Assembly: GCF_030348945.1 (NCBI RefSeq)
Contig: NZ_JAUCEN010000002.1
Coordinates: forward strand, 4,898,001 to 4,962,000
DNA from: Peribacillus sp. ACCC06369
GTDB taxonomy: Bacteria > Bacillota > Bacilli > Bacillales > DSM-1321
Length of the DNA: 64,000 nt
Direction: 5' to 3'
This document shows, in pieces, positions 42,775-46,943 of this stretch. The position numbers and the translations under genes are program-made. The notes below the pieces were generated by a model that was given only the letters and a program-made list of their open reading frames with translations, ran no database searches and was not told the origin of the DNA. Every line of letters begins with the position of its first letter. Position 1 is the stretch's first letter.

Positions 42775-43167
42775 TCACTTCGGTAAGTCGATAACGGCCA
42801 ATGTACAGCGTGAAATGCAGATAAGATTATCCTCTTCATCACGGATTTTCACGTCCCATACCATCGTCGTCCTCCCGCGATGGATGATGTTCCCTTCGGC
42901 GGTAACAATACCGGAACGGACGCCCCTTACATGATTGGCATTGATTTCAAGGCCCACGACAGCTTGTTTTTCACTGTCTACAAGCTGCATCCCGCCAAAA
43001 CTTGCAACGGATTCCGCAAGGGCAACGGACGCTCCCCCATGCAATAAACCATATGGCTGCCTGGTACGTTCATCCACCGGCATCGTCGCAATGACTTTCC
43101 CGTCACCGCTTTCTTTCATGTCTATCCCAAGCGTGCCTATCAACGAATTTTCAATATTTCTCTCCAT
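42775..43167 (-). CDS. menI: Hotdog thioesterase, DHNA-CoA hydrolase MenI (YuxO)
   Basis: A 130-residue hotdog-fold (PaaI-type) thioesterase with the family helix GLLHGGASVALAESVAS, whose Glu is the catalytic base. In B. subtilis yuxO/menI sits directly after mrpG and hydrolyses 1,4-dihydroxy-2-naphthoyl-CoA in menaquinone synthesis. The position here is one gene away, with the MOSC gene between. The ATG at 43167 follows a G-run; a TTG five codons earlier is possible. Confidence 0.82.
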   Translation of the reverse strand: MERNIENSLIGTLGIDMKESGDGKVIATMPVDERTRQPYGLLHGGASVALAESVASFGGMQLVDSEKQAVVGLEINANHVRGVRSGIVTAEGNIIHRGRTTMVWDVKIRDEEDNLICISRCTLAVIDLPK

Positions 43168-43245
43168 CCCCAATACCCCCAACTCTTATGTTTTTTCCTA
43201 CAACGAATGATTCAGAAAAAGTGAATCACTATTCATAATAGTATA

Positions 43246-43282
43246 CAAAAAAAGGATGACCCAAGTCTATCAAGTCATCCTT
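43246..43282 (-). terminator. Terminator closing the ribA-ribD-monooxygenase-phosphatase operon
   Basis: AAGGATGAC/GTCATCCTT with a 13-nt loop and T7 on the minus strand, 17 nt after the phosphatase stop codon. It separates the operon from menI. Confidence 0.88.
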
Positions 43283-43299
43283 CAATAATGTGAATTGTA

Positions 43300-43863
43300 T
43301 TATTTCGAGAGAATTTCTTTTAATTCAAACCAGTTTGTCAGTCTTGGGATATCCAATTCCCTGTTATAGGAGTTATCAATTGCATACACTTTCGTTGGAA
43401 TATCCAATAAAGTTTCCAGGACTGCCGGTTTATCATCAAAATAATAATCCAATTCCAATTTGCGAATCGTATCAATTTTTTCATGATCCTTCATACCACA
43501 GTAAAAATGGTCATCCTTAACCGGAAAGCCGTTTTCAATCAACCATTTTTTCGTCCGTTCACCATGCTCCGATTTTCTAGCGGTGATGTAATAGATCTCA
43601 TGACCATCTCGTTCAAGCTCCTGCAGCGTTTCCACCGCTCCCTCGAAGGTTGGACAGGATGAATAATACACTTCCTCGGCAAGGCTGTTCCACATCTTGC
43701 CCCCAGCCTCTTTATCAAGCCCGAAAGCTTCATGGATCTCTATTGTCTTTAATGCTTTGAATTTCGTTAACTCTATGTTCTTATTAAGCTTTTCATTATA
43801 AAGATGGAACGCGAACTCCCTCAAATTAATAAGGGTATCGTCAATATCAAAACCGAATTTCAT
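43300..43863 (-). CDS. HAD-fold nucleotidase (NT5C type)
   Basis: A 187-residue HAD phosphatase. It opens MKFGFDIDDTLINL: Asp6 is the nucleophile and Asp8 the general acid. Motif II is YYITARKSE, and the motif III/IV acids are in DYYFDDKPAVLE. It resembles the 5'(3')-deoxyribonucleotidase NT5C group (YqfW-like). It is last in a four-gene operon, 15 nt after the monooxygenase gene. By context it could dephosphorylate a ribityl- or ribosyl-aminopyrimidine phosphate made by the upstream enzymes, the step filled in riboflavin synthesis by other HAD phosphatases. That role is inference. The ATG with GAGGAG 8 nt upstream is chosen over the GTG. Confidence 0.8.
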   Translation of the reverse strand: MKFGFDIDDTLINLREFAFHLYNEKLNKNIELTKFKALKTIEIHEAFGLDKEAGGKMWNSLAEEVYYSSCPTFEGAVETLQELERDGHEIYYITARKSEHGERTKKWLIENGFPVKDDHFYCGMKDHEKIDTIRKLELDYYFDDKPAVLETLLDIPTKVYAIDNSYNRELDIPRLTNWFELKEILSK

Positions 43864-43878
43864 ATCTTTCACTCCTCT

Positions 43879-44976
43879 TTAAACATAAGCGGCGGCAAAC
43901 TGTGATGCGAAGGAAATTTCCTTGTCCACCTGAATGGCCTGTAATCTTTCAATTTCGGCTCTTCTTTCCGGTTCAGCCATTTTTAATCCAAGGAATCCAA
44001 TATCCCCCTGCATGATGCATCGTTGAATAAGCTCGGCTAATATATCGGCATCTTTCATGGCACAATTGAGTCCGAATGCACCTGTAGGTGTCATCGTATG
44101 GGCTGCATCACCTAATAATGCAACACCATCCTTTGTCCACGTTTCACAGTAGCTGCTGTAAACATCCAATAAAATGAAGTCATGCCAAGAGCTGATATTT
44201 TCACACACGACCTTTTTTAATTCAGGAAATGCAAAAAGTAAATCTTCAATGAATGGATCAAATGGCTGTTTTCGCAAATGGGGAAATGACCCATGTTCTA
44301 TATTCCATCCAATTTGGATGAAACCTCCAGCCTGAGTGAAGAGGGCAACCTGGGAGCCATTGACCAATGCCATCTTGATCGATGGCTTCCATCCTTCTGG
44401 AGCAGGAATCTTTGCCCACAGTAAATCATAGCCATGATTTTTAATCACGACTGGTATCCCGGCTTTTTTTCGAACCATGGAAAATCTGCCATCCGCTCCG
44501 ATTACCAATGAACTTTGCACTTCCAGATCATTTCCGCCCTTTCGAGCCTTGACACCCGTAAACCGGCCCATTTCATTCTGAATCAGGTCCGTAACCCTCG
44601 TATTCATCATCAATTGAAAAGAATCCAGCTTTTCAGCTTCATTCAATATAGCTGTAAGCAGATGATTTTGAGGGACATGTATCCCAACATGGTCTATAGG
44701 AAATTCCGGGAAAATTCTTTTAAATAGTTGGCCGTCATTCCAATATTCAATTTGTTCCATCCTAAGCAAGCCAAGCCTTTCCACGTCCTCGAATAAACCG
44801 TGCTTTTTAAGAATGGCCTCTCCTTCATCGTTCAGGAACTCGCCCCGGAACTCCCTGGCAACTTCAGAATGCCTCTCAAGCAGGACGACTGAAATGTCCT
44901 GCTTGGCCAATAGGTAAGCTAGCAGCGCTCCTCCTGGTCCTGATCCGACTATGCATACATCTGATTTAACCAACAT
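43879..44976 (-). CDS. FAD-dependent monooxygenase (PHBH fold)
   Basis: A 365-residue class A flavoprotein hydroxylase. FAD contacts: CIVGSGPGGALLAYLLAK (GxGxxG at 11-16), ER at 34-35, GADGRFSMVRK near 160 (DG motif, FAD and NAD(P)H) and LLGDAAHTMTPTGAFG near 290 (GD motif). Class A enzymes hydroxylate electron-rich aromatic rings. No marR or catabolic gene is adjacent; instead it lies 17 nt behind ribD in the same operon, which points to a pyrimidine or flavin-like substrate. This is inference: annotated relatives act on phenols, tetracyclines and quinolones. Confidence 0.85.
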   Translation of the reverse strand: MLVKSDVCIVGSGPGGALLAYLLAKQDISVVLLERHSEVAREFRGEFLNDEGEAILKKHGLFEDVERLGLLRMEQIEYWNDGQLFKRIFPEFPIDHVGIHVPQNHLLTAILNEAEKLDSFQLMMNTRVTDLIQNEMGRFTGVKARKGGNDLEVQSSLVIGADGRFSMVRKKAGIPVVIKNHGYDLLWAKIPAPEGWKPSIKMALVNGSQVALFTQAGGFIQIGWNIEHGSFPHLRKQPFDPFIEDLLFAFPELKKVVCENISSWHDFILLDVYSSYCETWTKDGVALLGDAAHTMTPTGAFGLNCAMKDADILAELIQRCIMQGDIGFLGLKMAEPERRAEIERLQAIQVDKEISFASQFAAAYV

Positions 44977-44993
44977 GCCTCTTCACCTGTTGT

Positions 44994-46094
44994 CTATTTT
45001 AATTTAGGATAAGCCGTTATGCGTATGTCTTCACCAAACGTGTCCACGCCAGAGAAGGCAACATCCATCGCTTCATCCATAGTATCTACATTCATTCCAG
45101 TATACGGTGTTAGTGAGTTTCTCCCACCCAATAGTTTAGGAGCTATATAAATCAAGTATTTATCGATGAGCCCCGCCCTTAGGAAAGAGGCATTCACTTC
45201 ACTTCCACCTTCCAGCAAGACATCCGTAATCCCCTTTTTATACAGCTCTTCCATCAAGGTCCTTAAATTCAGGCCCGTATCGTTTTTGGGGACGAGAATG
45301 AATTCGACTCCTTTTTCACGTAAAGCCGCCATTTTTCCCGCAGGTGCTTGATCATGCGTTACGATCATGGTTTTCGCATCTGATACCTGGACAACATTGG
45401 CTTCCATCGGAACACGTAATTCACTGTCTAGAATGATTCGGATCGGATTTTCCCCTCCGCCCTCCGGAAGTCTTGTCGTCAGTGATGGATCATCGGCCAA
45501 AACAGTCCCAATACCAACGAGAATGGCATCCACCTCATCACGCAGCAAATGAACGGAATGACGGGATTCTTCTCCTGTTATCCATTTTGAATGGCCTGTG
45601 TGGGTTGCAAGTTTTCCGTCAAGGGTCATCGCATACTTCGAAATGACAAATGGACGGCTCGTCAACATATTGTGAATGAAACGCTCATTCAGTCTTTGCG
45701 CTTCCTTCTCCAGGACGCCAACTTCCACTTCAATGCCCGCATTCCTAATGATGGATATCCCTCTTCCTGCAACTTCCGGATTGGGATCTTGTGTAGCCAC
45801 CACAACCCGCCGGACACCTGATTCTTTCACTAAATTTGCACAAGGAGGTGTCTTACCATAATGGGAACACGGCTCAAGAGTCACGTATAGCGTTGCACCT
45901 TCTGCATACTCACCCGCCATTTTGAAAGCATGGACCTCAGCATGCGGCTCACCCGCTTTACGGTGGATTCCTGTACCGGCTATCACACCGTCCTTAACTA
46001 TGACTGCACCGACCACTGGATTTGGATTCGTCTTTCCTTTAGCACTGGCCGCCAAATCCAATGCCAGCTTCATGTAATATTGATCATCATTCAT
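44994..46094 (-). CDS. ribD: Bifunctional pyrimidine deaminase/reductase RibD
   Basis: A 366-residue two-domain enzyme that deaminates 2,5-diamino-6-ribosylaminopyrimidinone phosphate and reduces the ribosyl side chain. The deaminase zinc site is intact: HAE at 51-53, PCSHYGKTPPC with Cys76 and Cys85. The reductase part has DGKLATHTGHSKWITGEESR and VGIGTVLADDPSLTTR. Both halves look fully functional. AAGGAG precedes the ATG; a longer frame overlaps the upstream gene. It lies 13 nt after the GTP cyclohydrolase gene. No ribE or ribH accompanies it, unlike the usual Bacillus ribDEAH operon. Confidence 0.93.
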   Translation of the reverse strand: MNDDQYYMKLALDLAASAKGKTNPNPVVGAVIVKDGVIAGTGIHRKAGEPHAEVHAFKMAGEYAEGATLYVTLEPCSHYGKTPPCANLVKESGVRRVVVATQDPNPEVAGRGISIIRNAGIEVEVGVLEKEAQRLNERFIHNMLTSRPFVISKYAMTLDGKLATHTGHSKWITGEESRHSVHLLRDEVDAILVGIGTVLADDPSLTTRLPEGGGENPIRIILDSELRVPMEANVVQVSDAKTMIVTHDQAPAGKMAALREKGVEFILVPKNDTGLNLRTLMEELYKKGITDVLLEGGSEVNASFLRAGLIDKYLIYIAPKLLGGRNSLTPYTGMNVDTMDEAMDVAFSGVDTFGEDIRITAYPKLK

Positions 46095-46107
46095 ACTATG
46101 GCTCTCC

Positions 46108-46857
46108 TTATACAATCAAAGTTGGCTTCTTGTGGGGAATATGTCCTGACTTCTTAACCTTTGTATCCAGATAGAAGCTATTATCTTCCGTCAAACCGCC
46201 CCAAAGTGGGATATGGTCCTTTGCCGCAAGTCCATGCTTCATAAGGGCATCCAACTTTTTGGGGTTATTCGTAATTAAAGTAACCGGCTCCTCACGCAGT
46301 TCCCTCAACACTCGAATGGCTCCCTCGTAAGATCGCGTATCGTCTTCGAATCCTAACGCCTGATTCGCCTCTACCGTGTCATACCCTTCCTCCTGAAGCA
46401 AATATGCAAGAGATTTGGAAAACAGGCCGATCCCTCTTCCTTCATGGTCCGCAAGGTAAAAAATGGCCCCGCACCCATGCTCGGCTATCATCTTCATCGA
46501 TTGGTGGAGCTGGTAGCCGCAATCGCAGCGTTTACTGCCGAAGATATCACCTGTGTGACAGATGCTATGCATCCGGACGAGTGCATCCCCCGACTTTTCA
46601 AAATCTCCATACACCAATACGGAGGATTGCTGTCCAAAAGCAAGGTTAGCTTCCGAAAGCGATTCAAGCACCGCTTCCTTGTCATTATCCATGCCATCAA
46701 GCTGGAGCCACGTATACCATTGGAAAACCGTTGAGAAATCGCCTTGTTCGACAGGCAGGTTCACTGGCCCCACAAGGCAAATATCCGCCTTTCCCGGGGT
46801 TTTGAGGATTTTCATTTTATCTATTAAAAGGTCTTTTGTTTGCTGGGTTATTTTCAT
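46108..46857 (-). CDS. Stand-alone GTP cyclohydrolase II (RibA-like)
   Basis: A 249-residue GTP cyclohydrolase II without the DHBP synthase domain that is fused in Bacillus RibA (RibBA). Zinc ligands: Cys100, Cys111, Cys113 (CHTGDIFGSKRCDCG). The catalytic segment reads FYLADHEGRGIGL (133-145); riboflavin-pathway enzymes typically have YLRxxEGRGIGL, so the Arg after Tyr-Leu is Ala here. An N-terminal extension of about 75 residues exceeds the E. coli enzyme (196 residues). GGTGAT is 7 nt before the ATG. First gene of the operon. It opens GTP to a diaminopyrimidinone or a formylated variant; the exact product is uncertain. Confidence 0.88.
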   Translation of the reverse strand: MKITQQTKDLLIDKMKILKTPGKADICLVGPVNLPVEQGDFSTVFQWYTWLQLDGMDNDKEAVLESLSEANLAFGQQSSVLVYGDFEKSGDALVRMHSICHTGDIFGSKRCDCGYQLHQSMKMIAEHGCGAIFYLADHEGRGIGLFSKSLAYLLQEEGYDTVEANQALGFEDDTRSYEGAIRVLRELREEPVTLITNNPKKLDALMKHGLAAKDHIPLWGGLTEDNSFYLDTKVKKSGHIPHKKPTLIV

Positions 46858-46897
46858 GTTAACATCACCTATTTTATAATTTATAGTGTGCCTTCTC

Positions 46898-46916
46898 CTT
46901 ACTTTAGGTAAGTAAG
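46898..46916. promoter_or_regulatory. Perfect inverted repeat overlapping the operon start site
   Basis: CTTACTT-TAGGT-AAGTAAG: 7-bp arms with a 5-nt spacer, touching the -10 hexamer and covering the expected +1. The placement is that of a repressor operator. The TTAC/GTAA-rich arms recall sites bound by HxlR/DUF24-type regulators, but none is encoded nearby. Confidence 0.6.
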
Positions 46917-46943
46917 TATATTACTATACACTATACCTGTCAA
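46915..46943 (-). promoter_or_regulatory. Sigma-A promoter of the ribA-like operon
   Basis: On the minus strand TTGACA (46938-46943), a 17-nt spacer and TATACT (46915-46920). The leader to the ATG is about 50 nt, too short to hold an FMN (RFN) riboswitch. Confidence 0.85.

Follow-up and report, generated by a model that had tools for sequence, protein, structure and literature searches.

In Bacillales, riboflavin synthesis is usually portrayed as the work of one operon controlled by a flavin mononucleotide (FMN) riboswitch. A single operon of this Bacillus subtilis type, with the order ribD-ribE-ribBA-ribH, is represented among our loci by L123, and the four-gene operon described here, located in a 64,000-nt stretch of Peribacillus sp. 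ACCC06369 (contig NZ_JAUCEN010000002.1; hereafter the window, meaning the whole stretch analysed), holds the same GTP cyclohydrolase II (GCHII) and RibD chemistry in the same pathway. Here, however, GCHII is a stand-alone protein, GCHII and RibD are encoded in a separate operon devoid of a riboswitch, a HAD phosphatase and a class A flavin monooxygenase (FMO) are added, and ribE-ribB-ribH stay with the riboswitch. Another related case is the Escherichia coli ribA gene, with which, unlike in this operon, presumably no RibD, phosphatase or hydroxylase is co-transcribed; it resembles the operon in that GCHII is placed under redox-stress control, while the regulator differs. The available part of PMC6092379 lists ribA as a member of the SoxRS regulon. 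Closest in regulation is the B. subtilis catDE operon (CatR/YodB, MarR/DUF24), which is under CatR, YodB and Fur, with CatR and YodB acting as repressors (PMC6212828, in the text available). The Peribacillus site fits TACT-N7-AGTA, and a catDE-like operon of this genome carries an identical palindrome at the equivalent position; in contrast to catDE, the members here are riboflavin genes, and the predicted site is likened to the known ones via YodB and not via the CatR box. The components are of known kinds, and none of the papers listed in our literature searches shows their combination or the regulatory switch.

In regard to the place of the operon in the pathway, the genome of this strain encodes a single full RibD, which is located in the operon and is the sole open reading frame (ORF) above the TIGR00326 cut-off, while the ORFs of the four further PF01872 matches measure 145-193 aa. 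Two GCHIIs are present, both short, together with one ORF for 3,4-dihydroxy-2-butanone 4-phosphate (DHBP) synthase (ribB, 216-220 aa) without a GCHII domain. Two FMN riboswitches (RF00050) were found, at C2:582999 and C2:3390413; one precedes ribE-ribB-ribH, where riboflavin synthase and lumazine synthase are confirmed by Pfam, and the other precedes a component of a riboflavin transporter of the energy-coupling factor (ECF) type. No Rfam family reached its gathering score in the 64-kb window, which is therefore without an FMN riboswitch, as the first-pass annotation of this locus had claimed. The same annotation had reported ribE and ribH as absent, which holds for the operon but not for the genome, where they lie with ribB behind the riboswitch, and had asked whether a complete ribDEAH operon with a riboswitch exists elsewhere, where only ribE-ribB-ribH and no full RibD was found. 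Since the single RibD lies here and ribE, ribB and ribH lie elsewhere behind an FMN riboswitch, the operon must feed riboflavin, and we are highly confident that it constitutes the cell's sole early arm of riboflavin synthesis, from GTP to 5-amino-6-ribitylaminouracil (5-A-RU), detached from the FMN riboswitch. The earlier proposal of a dedicated pathway diverting the early pyrimidine into an oxidised product is not supported. The annotation had named a lack of other rib genes as refuting it, and for the key step this holds, as the only full RibD lies in the operon; the single RibD ruled the proposal out as the main reading.

Comparable arrangements were found in other genomes. In the loci chosen for the scan, RF00050 was present in all six riboswitch-type rib loci and in none of nine GCHII-operon loci. 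We further inspected 68 genomes (43 from a family search, 23 FMO bearers from a class search, and the genomes of loci L026 and L027), a set in which FMO is deliberately over-represented (49 bearers, 19 non-bearers). All but G001, in which both GCHII and full RibD are missing, have a full RibD (67 genomes), always as a single copy, with one extra fragment in G037. RibD adjoins a short GCHII in 43 genomes and RibBA in 23, and is located elsewhere in G088. Thirty-seven genomes lack a GCHII of the RibBA type, and 36 of these have a short GCHII, which adjoins RibD in 35; the RibBA-type count includes G291, a Kurthia metagenome-assembled genome (MAG) with an additional GCHII ORF of 204 aa. This ORF (L131) lies on a 5-kb contig and is foreign or a contamination by appearance. 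Three genomes look like stages of a pathway takeover: in G004 (L127) the ribD of the riboswitch operon is broken and an intact copy is encoded together with FMO, G283 retains RibBA but no ribD in its riboswitch operon, and in the genome studied here that operon has neither ribD nor a GCHII domain.

The features of the operon, all on the minus strand, are as follows.

46938..46943, minus strand: -35 element TTGACA, with a 17-nt spacer to the -10 element
46915..46920, minus strand: -10 element TATACT; the promoter TTGACA-N17-TATACT spans 46943-46915
46895..46916, minus strand: operator-like palindrome CTTACTTACCTAAAGTAAGGAG, directly after the -10 element, where a repressor of the CatR/YodB (HxlR/DUF24) type is predicted to bind
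46900-46914, minus strand: palindrome core TACT-N7-AGTA, part of the operator-like palindrome
46108..46857, minus strand: GCHII, short stand-alone type, 249 aa (PF00925, PRK00393, alignment to 2bz0)
44994..46094, minus strand: RibD, bifunctional deaminase/reductase (TIGR00326), start ATG
43879..44976, minus strand: class A flavin adenine dinucleotide (FAD) monooxygenase, FMO, 365 aa (PF01494)
43300..43863, minus strand: NT5C-like HAD phosphatase, candidate dedicated phosphatase of 5-A-RU phosphate (ARAPDP) (PF06941, linkage to RibD)
about 43246..43282, minus strand: intrinsic terminator AAGGATGAC...GTCATCCTT with a T-run, stem-loop read by eye

The four genes are thus ordered GCHII-RibD-FMO-HAD between one promoter and one terminator, with intergenic gaps of 13, 17 and 15 nt, and this packing, together with the positions, agrees with the first-pass annotation. 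Alternative starts are open for RibD (a TTG frame to 46115) and HAD (a GTG frame to 43872). RibD matches TIGR00326 with 401.1 bits (cut-off 156.35) over residues 8-359, covering both domains. GCHII scores 156 bits with PF00925 (cut-off 23.3) and 189.2 with PRK00393 (cut-off 148), and stays below the TIGR00505 ribA cut-off (172.4 vs 205.85); in the alignment its CHTGDIFGSKRCDCG pairs with CLTGDALFSLRCDCG of the 2bz0 GCHII and the C-TGD...RCDCG stretch is conserved, the aligned cysteines being presumably the zinc site.

Conservation was followed in 14 related loci (L015-L028), mainly from Peribacillus, most of which share contigs with the genome set. In 11 of them (L015-L025) all four genes are intact and in the same order at 81-97% identity, which bears out the co-conservation on which the earlier annotation depended. 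The order is also kept in L028, with FMO broken, and in L026, a Kurthia MAG, at 57-70% identity, while L027 (Alkalihalobacillus deserti) has GCHII-FMO only. The four-gene operon is conserved beyond chance and is not an artefact. Its promoter is near-identical from the -35 element to the start codon in 12 Peribacillus loci, window included, and the -35 hexamer TTGACA is the same in the 11 relatives L015-L025. Downstream of the operon lies a thioesterase-superfamily gene (PF03061; window 42775-43182), and similar ORFs likewise lie behind the operon in G009, G010, G017, G018 and G030.

A putative regulatory element connects the operon to another promoter of the same genome. The palindrome TACTTACCTAAAGTAAG, just after the -10 element, is common to the operon and the catDE-like promoter, and at the operon the site reads TACT-TACCTAA-AGTA. 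Perfect TACTTAC-N5-GTAA occurs four times in the genome: two copies lie inside genes (a sigma-54-activator-like gene and a phosphoglucose-isomerase gene, the latter in the window), while the two intergenic copies belong to this operon and to the region directly before a DoxX gene that is followed by a VOC/extradiol-type dioxygenase gene, the position after the -10 element being the same at both promoters. As this dioxygenase is far below the NCBIfam equivalog cut-offs (catechol_2_3, 42.5 vs 320), "catDE-like" is our own label. CTTAC-N5-GTAAG has one place in the genome, compared with 10 for the reversed control, and among 86 sites with one mismatch to TACTTAC-N5-GTAA, the three examined (L176, L178, L189) were not of the catechol type. 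A matrix built from 25 different catD/E-like promoter sites of other genomes ranks the operon palindrome first in the 64 kb, with 19.3 vs 11.1 for the next. The site shared with catDE-like genes was absent from the first-pass annotation.

Related sites are widespread among the relatives. Of 55 short-GCHII genes, 28 have TTAC-N4..6-GTAA in the 230 bp preceding them, compared with 1.42 expected from mononucleotide shuffles; 12 of these 28 are the window and its close kin. The pattern ACTTACNTAAAGTAA yields 72 sites in 41 of the 43 family genomes, and six when reversed. Fifty-seven sites were read by their neighbour genes, with catD- plus catE-like genes downstream of 25, a catE-like gene of 13, a catD-like gene of two, catE-like-GCHII of one (G007), GCHII-RibD of nine and neither of seven; each of the remaining 15 is followed, at a distance of 263-300 bp, by the Pfam match of a short GCHII. 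Altogether, 65 of the 72 precede catD/E-like genes or GCHII, and GCHII is so preceded in 25 of the 43 genomes. Where RibD stays in the riboswitch operon (G012, G039 and G040, for example), the catE-like site is still present, and the operator therefore appears older than the riboflavin link. In three genomes of the f12/g43 group (L097-L099) a solitary short GCHII carries a strong catechol-type site while RibBA lies next to RibD; could these be GCHIIs used only in stress?

As to the regulator, HxlR-family genes (PF01638) adjoin GCHII-RibD in G003 and G007 (L108, L114), and in G007 (L114/L206) an HxlR regulator, a CatE-like dioxygenase, GCHII and RibD lie side by side, with an operator-like site before the CatE-like gene. 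The preference of YodB is given as TACT-N7-AGTA in the accessible part of PMC8063818, and sites of MhqR as TATCTCGAA-type in that of PMC6798810. CatR/YodB is thus favoured over MhqR, because the site fits TACT-N7-AGTA and MhqR sites differ. Judged from the sequence, the operon is likely to belong to a CatR/YodB-type catechol/quinone-stress regulon; we infer the identity of the repressor and an induction by catechol.

Several observations weigh against this assignment and the control it implies. No TTAC-N4..6-GTAA was found within 230 bp upstream in L027, L081 and L082, nor in L026, though little upstream DNA is available there, and Peribacillus G018 and G019 have no exact ACTTACNTAAAGTAA site. 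That pattern was written after both promoters had been seen, and the counts from the 43 genomes are non-independent because the genomes are close kin. In a wider matrix test, leaving out the window and L015-L025 and using 613 control upstreams with a maximum score of 15.4, only 13 of 43 GCHII upstreams and none of 22 FMO upstreams exceeded all controls, and FMO-GCHII or FMO groups of other families scored 9.1 (L085), 10.7 (L089, at a pirin gene) and 10.0 (L093, at DoxX). In the same test, both CatE-like upstreams and neither of two DoxX upstreams exceeded all controls, and the GCHII sites of three FMO-less Peribacillus scored 12.6, below the control maximum. Finally, if the sole RibD is under repression, its basal level of expression would have to be good.

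The protein whose role is the most debatable is FMO. It has the class A flavin monooxygenase fold across its full length, with G11, G13, G16, D162-G163 and G289-D290 unchanged in all 44 rows of an alignment, and among the best 25 of 78 matches it exceeds the cut-off of no named NCBIfam monooxygenase subfamily (best PRK06185, 209.7 vs 500). The closest solved enzyme is the Bacillus niacini flavin monooxygenase (8uiu, 8urc, 8urd), to which it is only 29-30% identical and one entry of which is titled with bound (2,6)DHP, which we read as 2,6-dihydroxypyridine. The next is PqsL, solved with 2-aminobenzoylacetate, the amine of which it oxidises. These ligands, the first of them a uracil-like N-heteroaromatic, suit a reading in which FMO hydroxylates or N-oxidises a pyrimidine of the pathway, i.e. 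the diaminopyrimidine phosphate (DARPP), 5-A-RU or its phosphate, and so discards a reactive excess or makes an oxidised product. It is also suited by the fact that FMO adjoins a short GCHII in five arrangements (GCHII-RibD-FMO-HAD; GCHII-RibD-HAD-FMO; FMO-GCHII; FMO-GCHII with convergent HAD; GCHII-FMO), involving RibDs from two clades and GCHIIs from several branches. The tie between FMO and riboflavin pyrimidines drawn in the earlier annotation thus survives as a recurrent FMO-GCHII link, while the dedicated diversion, given the single RibD, does not. However, co-regulation accounts equally well for this adjacency, and in 13 f12/g43 genomes with RibBA next to RibD, FMO is not beside GCHII. 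In all seven of these 13 loci that were read, a MarR-type ORF lies near FMO (Pfam-checked in three), joined in three by an FMN-reductase-like ORF (Pfam-checked in one); in G212 (L093) FMO follows DoxX and an esterase, and in L114 and L117 GCHII is found with catechol-type genes but without FMO. We consider a pathway pyrimidine a possible but rather doubtful substrate, and regard it as an even question whether FMO acts on a stressor instead. Oxidation of a phenolic or N-heteroaromatic stressor would be its most likely activity.

Alternatively, FMO could be a passenger in ordinary riboflavin synthesis, without a functional tie. No FMO match was found in 12 family genomes that keep a short GCHII beside RibD, and in G015 (same contig as L028) FMO is broken, which may be a sequencing error because the assembly is 87% complete. 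Against a passenger stand the recurrence of FMO beside GCHII in arrangements unrelated to one another and the purifying selection on FMO (ratio of nonsynonymous to synonymous substitution rates, dN/dS, 0.08-0.21 vs 11 relatives), and we find it improbable; FMO is better described as accessory, because relatives keep GCHII-RibD-HAD without it.

Other neighbourhoods of these genes were recorded on the way. The DoxX-esterase-FMO group of G212 and an esterase-LigB dioxygenase-DoxX-GCHII group in G292 (L117) resemble quinone-stress gene sets. In G180 (L089) two pirin genes directly precede FMO-GCHII, with HAD convergent, and the same genome also has a rib operon under riboswitch control, in which ribD and RibBA are both present. 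In G004 (L079) GCHII-RibD-HAD-FMO is followed by a thiamin pyrophosphate (TPP) riboswitch and then by TenA and hydroxyethylthiazole-kinase genes; a link to thiamin was rejected, as this neighbourhood is a single occurrence. The second short GCHII of the Peribacillus genome (C2:2154334-2154765; L012:7245-8003) is solitary, with an ABC-transporter gene as neighbour and a group II intron reverse transcriptase some kb off, and the 230 bp preceding it contain no TTAC-N4..6-GTAA. An anti-phage system was ruled out, as GCHII, FMO and HAD had no PADLOC match.

The HAD protein matches PF06941 with 40 bits (cut-off 24.8), and a search of solved structures with it returned one weak, irrelevant chain and nothing else. 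Twelve family genomes have a short GCHII next to RibD and no FMO match; the HAD gene follows in 11 of them, the exception at that locus being G007. Homologues at E 1e-25 or better occur in 47 of 250 class genomes; 30 loci were fetched, one of them from the genome studied here, and 17 of the 47 matches had no locus. Among the 20 homologues of at least 52% identity, 18 have RibD within 1.5 kb, one has GCHII and FMO and one none, which sustains the earlier suggestion of a phosphatase of the same route, while at 40% identity or less a rib gene is nearby in none of nine; all 17 aligned sequences have the DxDDT motif without change. Taking linkage to RibD as the criterion for an ARAPDP phosphatase, which is our own choice, the operon protein is probably the phosphatase of the riboflavin early arm. 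It would catalyse the same reaction as the HAD enzymes of B. subtilis, E. coli and Arabidopsis and the Aquifex enzyme. According to PMC12051542, those HAD phosphatases are nonspecific and no dedicated phosphatase had been identified before; the answer that the paper itself gives, the Aquifex enzyme, belongs to the histidine family with another fold. The NT5C-like subfamily, by contrast, is encoded with GCHII-RibD.

Taken together, the best overall explanation, in which we have moderate confidence, is a riboflavin GTP arm under catechol/quinone-type control with a co-expressed FMO. According to this model, GCHII would convert GTP to the diaminopyrimidine phosphate, RibD would convert the latter to 5-A-RU phosphate, and the HAD protein would strip the phosphate, its product joining the DHBP that the ribE-ribB-ribH operon provides under separate control by the FMN riboswitch. 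The GTP arm would be freed from FMN feedback and put under a catechol/quinone-sensing HxlR-family repressor of the CatR/YodB type, through an operator in common with the catDE-like dioxygenase operon. Phenolic or quinone stress would lift repression and provide more flavin precursor for FAD/FMN-dependent detoxifying enzymes, while the same transcript would yield FMO, which may hydroxylate an aromatic stressor, probably as a step preceding cleavage of the ring. The simplest way to read these parts jointly is that flavin supply follows demand under catechol/quinone stress and that a hydroxylase is expressed along with it.

A bolder possibility, which we hold to be unlikely, is that the early pyrimidines play a stress role themselves, with the GCHII product and 5-A-RU, both electron-rich diamines, trapping electrophiles. 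The catechol-type repressor could then sense quinonoid oxidation products, perhaps of the early pyrimidines, while FMO and the CatE-like dioxygenase could dispose of the spent ones. Related to this, in yeast GCHII activity, and not riboflavin, is reported to confer tolerance to nitrosative stress, with the GCHII product as a scavenger of nitric oxide or its derivatives (PMC7138843, in the part available). If true, the first arm of riboflavin synthesis would also serve the cell as a chemical defence, equipped with a sensor and a means of disposal of its own.

A toxoflavin-like azapteridine pathway is, on the other hand, extremely improbable. GCHIIs 49-52% identical to that of the operon occur in plasmid clusters of Halobacillus litoralis and Bacillus arachidis (L134, L135), which we take to be toxoflavin-like and which hold GCHII, WD40 and formylglycine-generating-like genes, with RibD too in L135. 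Toxoflavin clusters combine WD40, formylglycine-generating-enzyme-like and methyltransferase genes with GCHII and RibD. We rejected this candidate, as the four-gene operon has none of the first three, and no gene of the operon FMO family was found in the L134 and L135 stretches.

In the literature, under coverage restricted by licence, the matches listed held nothing on this operon or the 8UIU enzyme, none joining GCHII with CatR/catDE by title or start of abstract, none on a phosphatase-GCHII gene cluster in Planococcaceae and none on an HxlR operator. In regard to what the locus means, the NT5C-like HAD subfamily offers a concrete candidate for a phosphatase step that was still unassigned according to a 2025 paper, and the substrates considered above form a short-list for a monooxygenase family without an assigned function. 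In 25 of the 43 family genomes (exact pattern), a catechol/quinone-type operator takes the place of the riboswitch on the arm that includes the committed GTP step, and in this position it would make the supply of flavins one component of the way in which the cell defends itself against soil phenolics.

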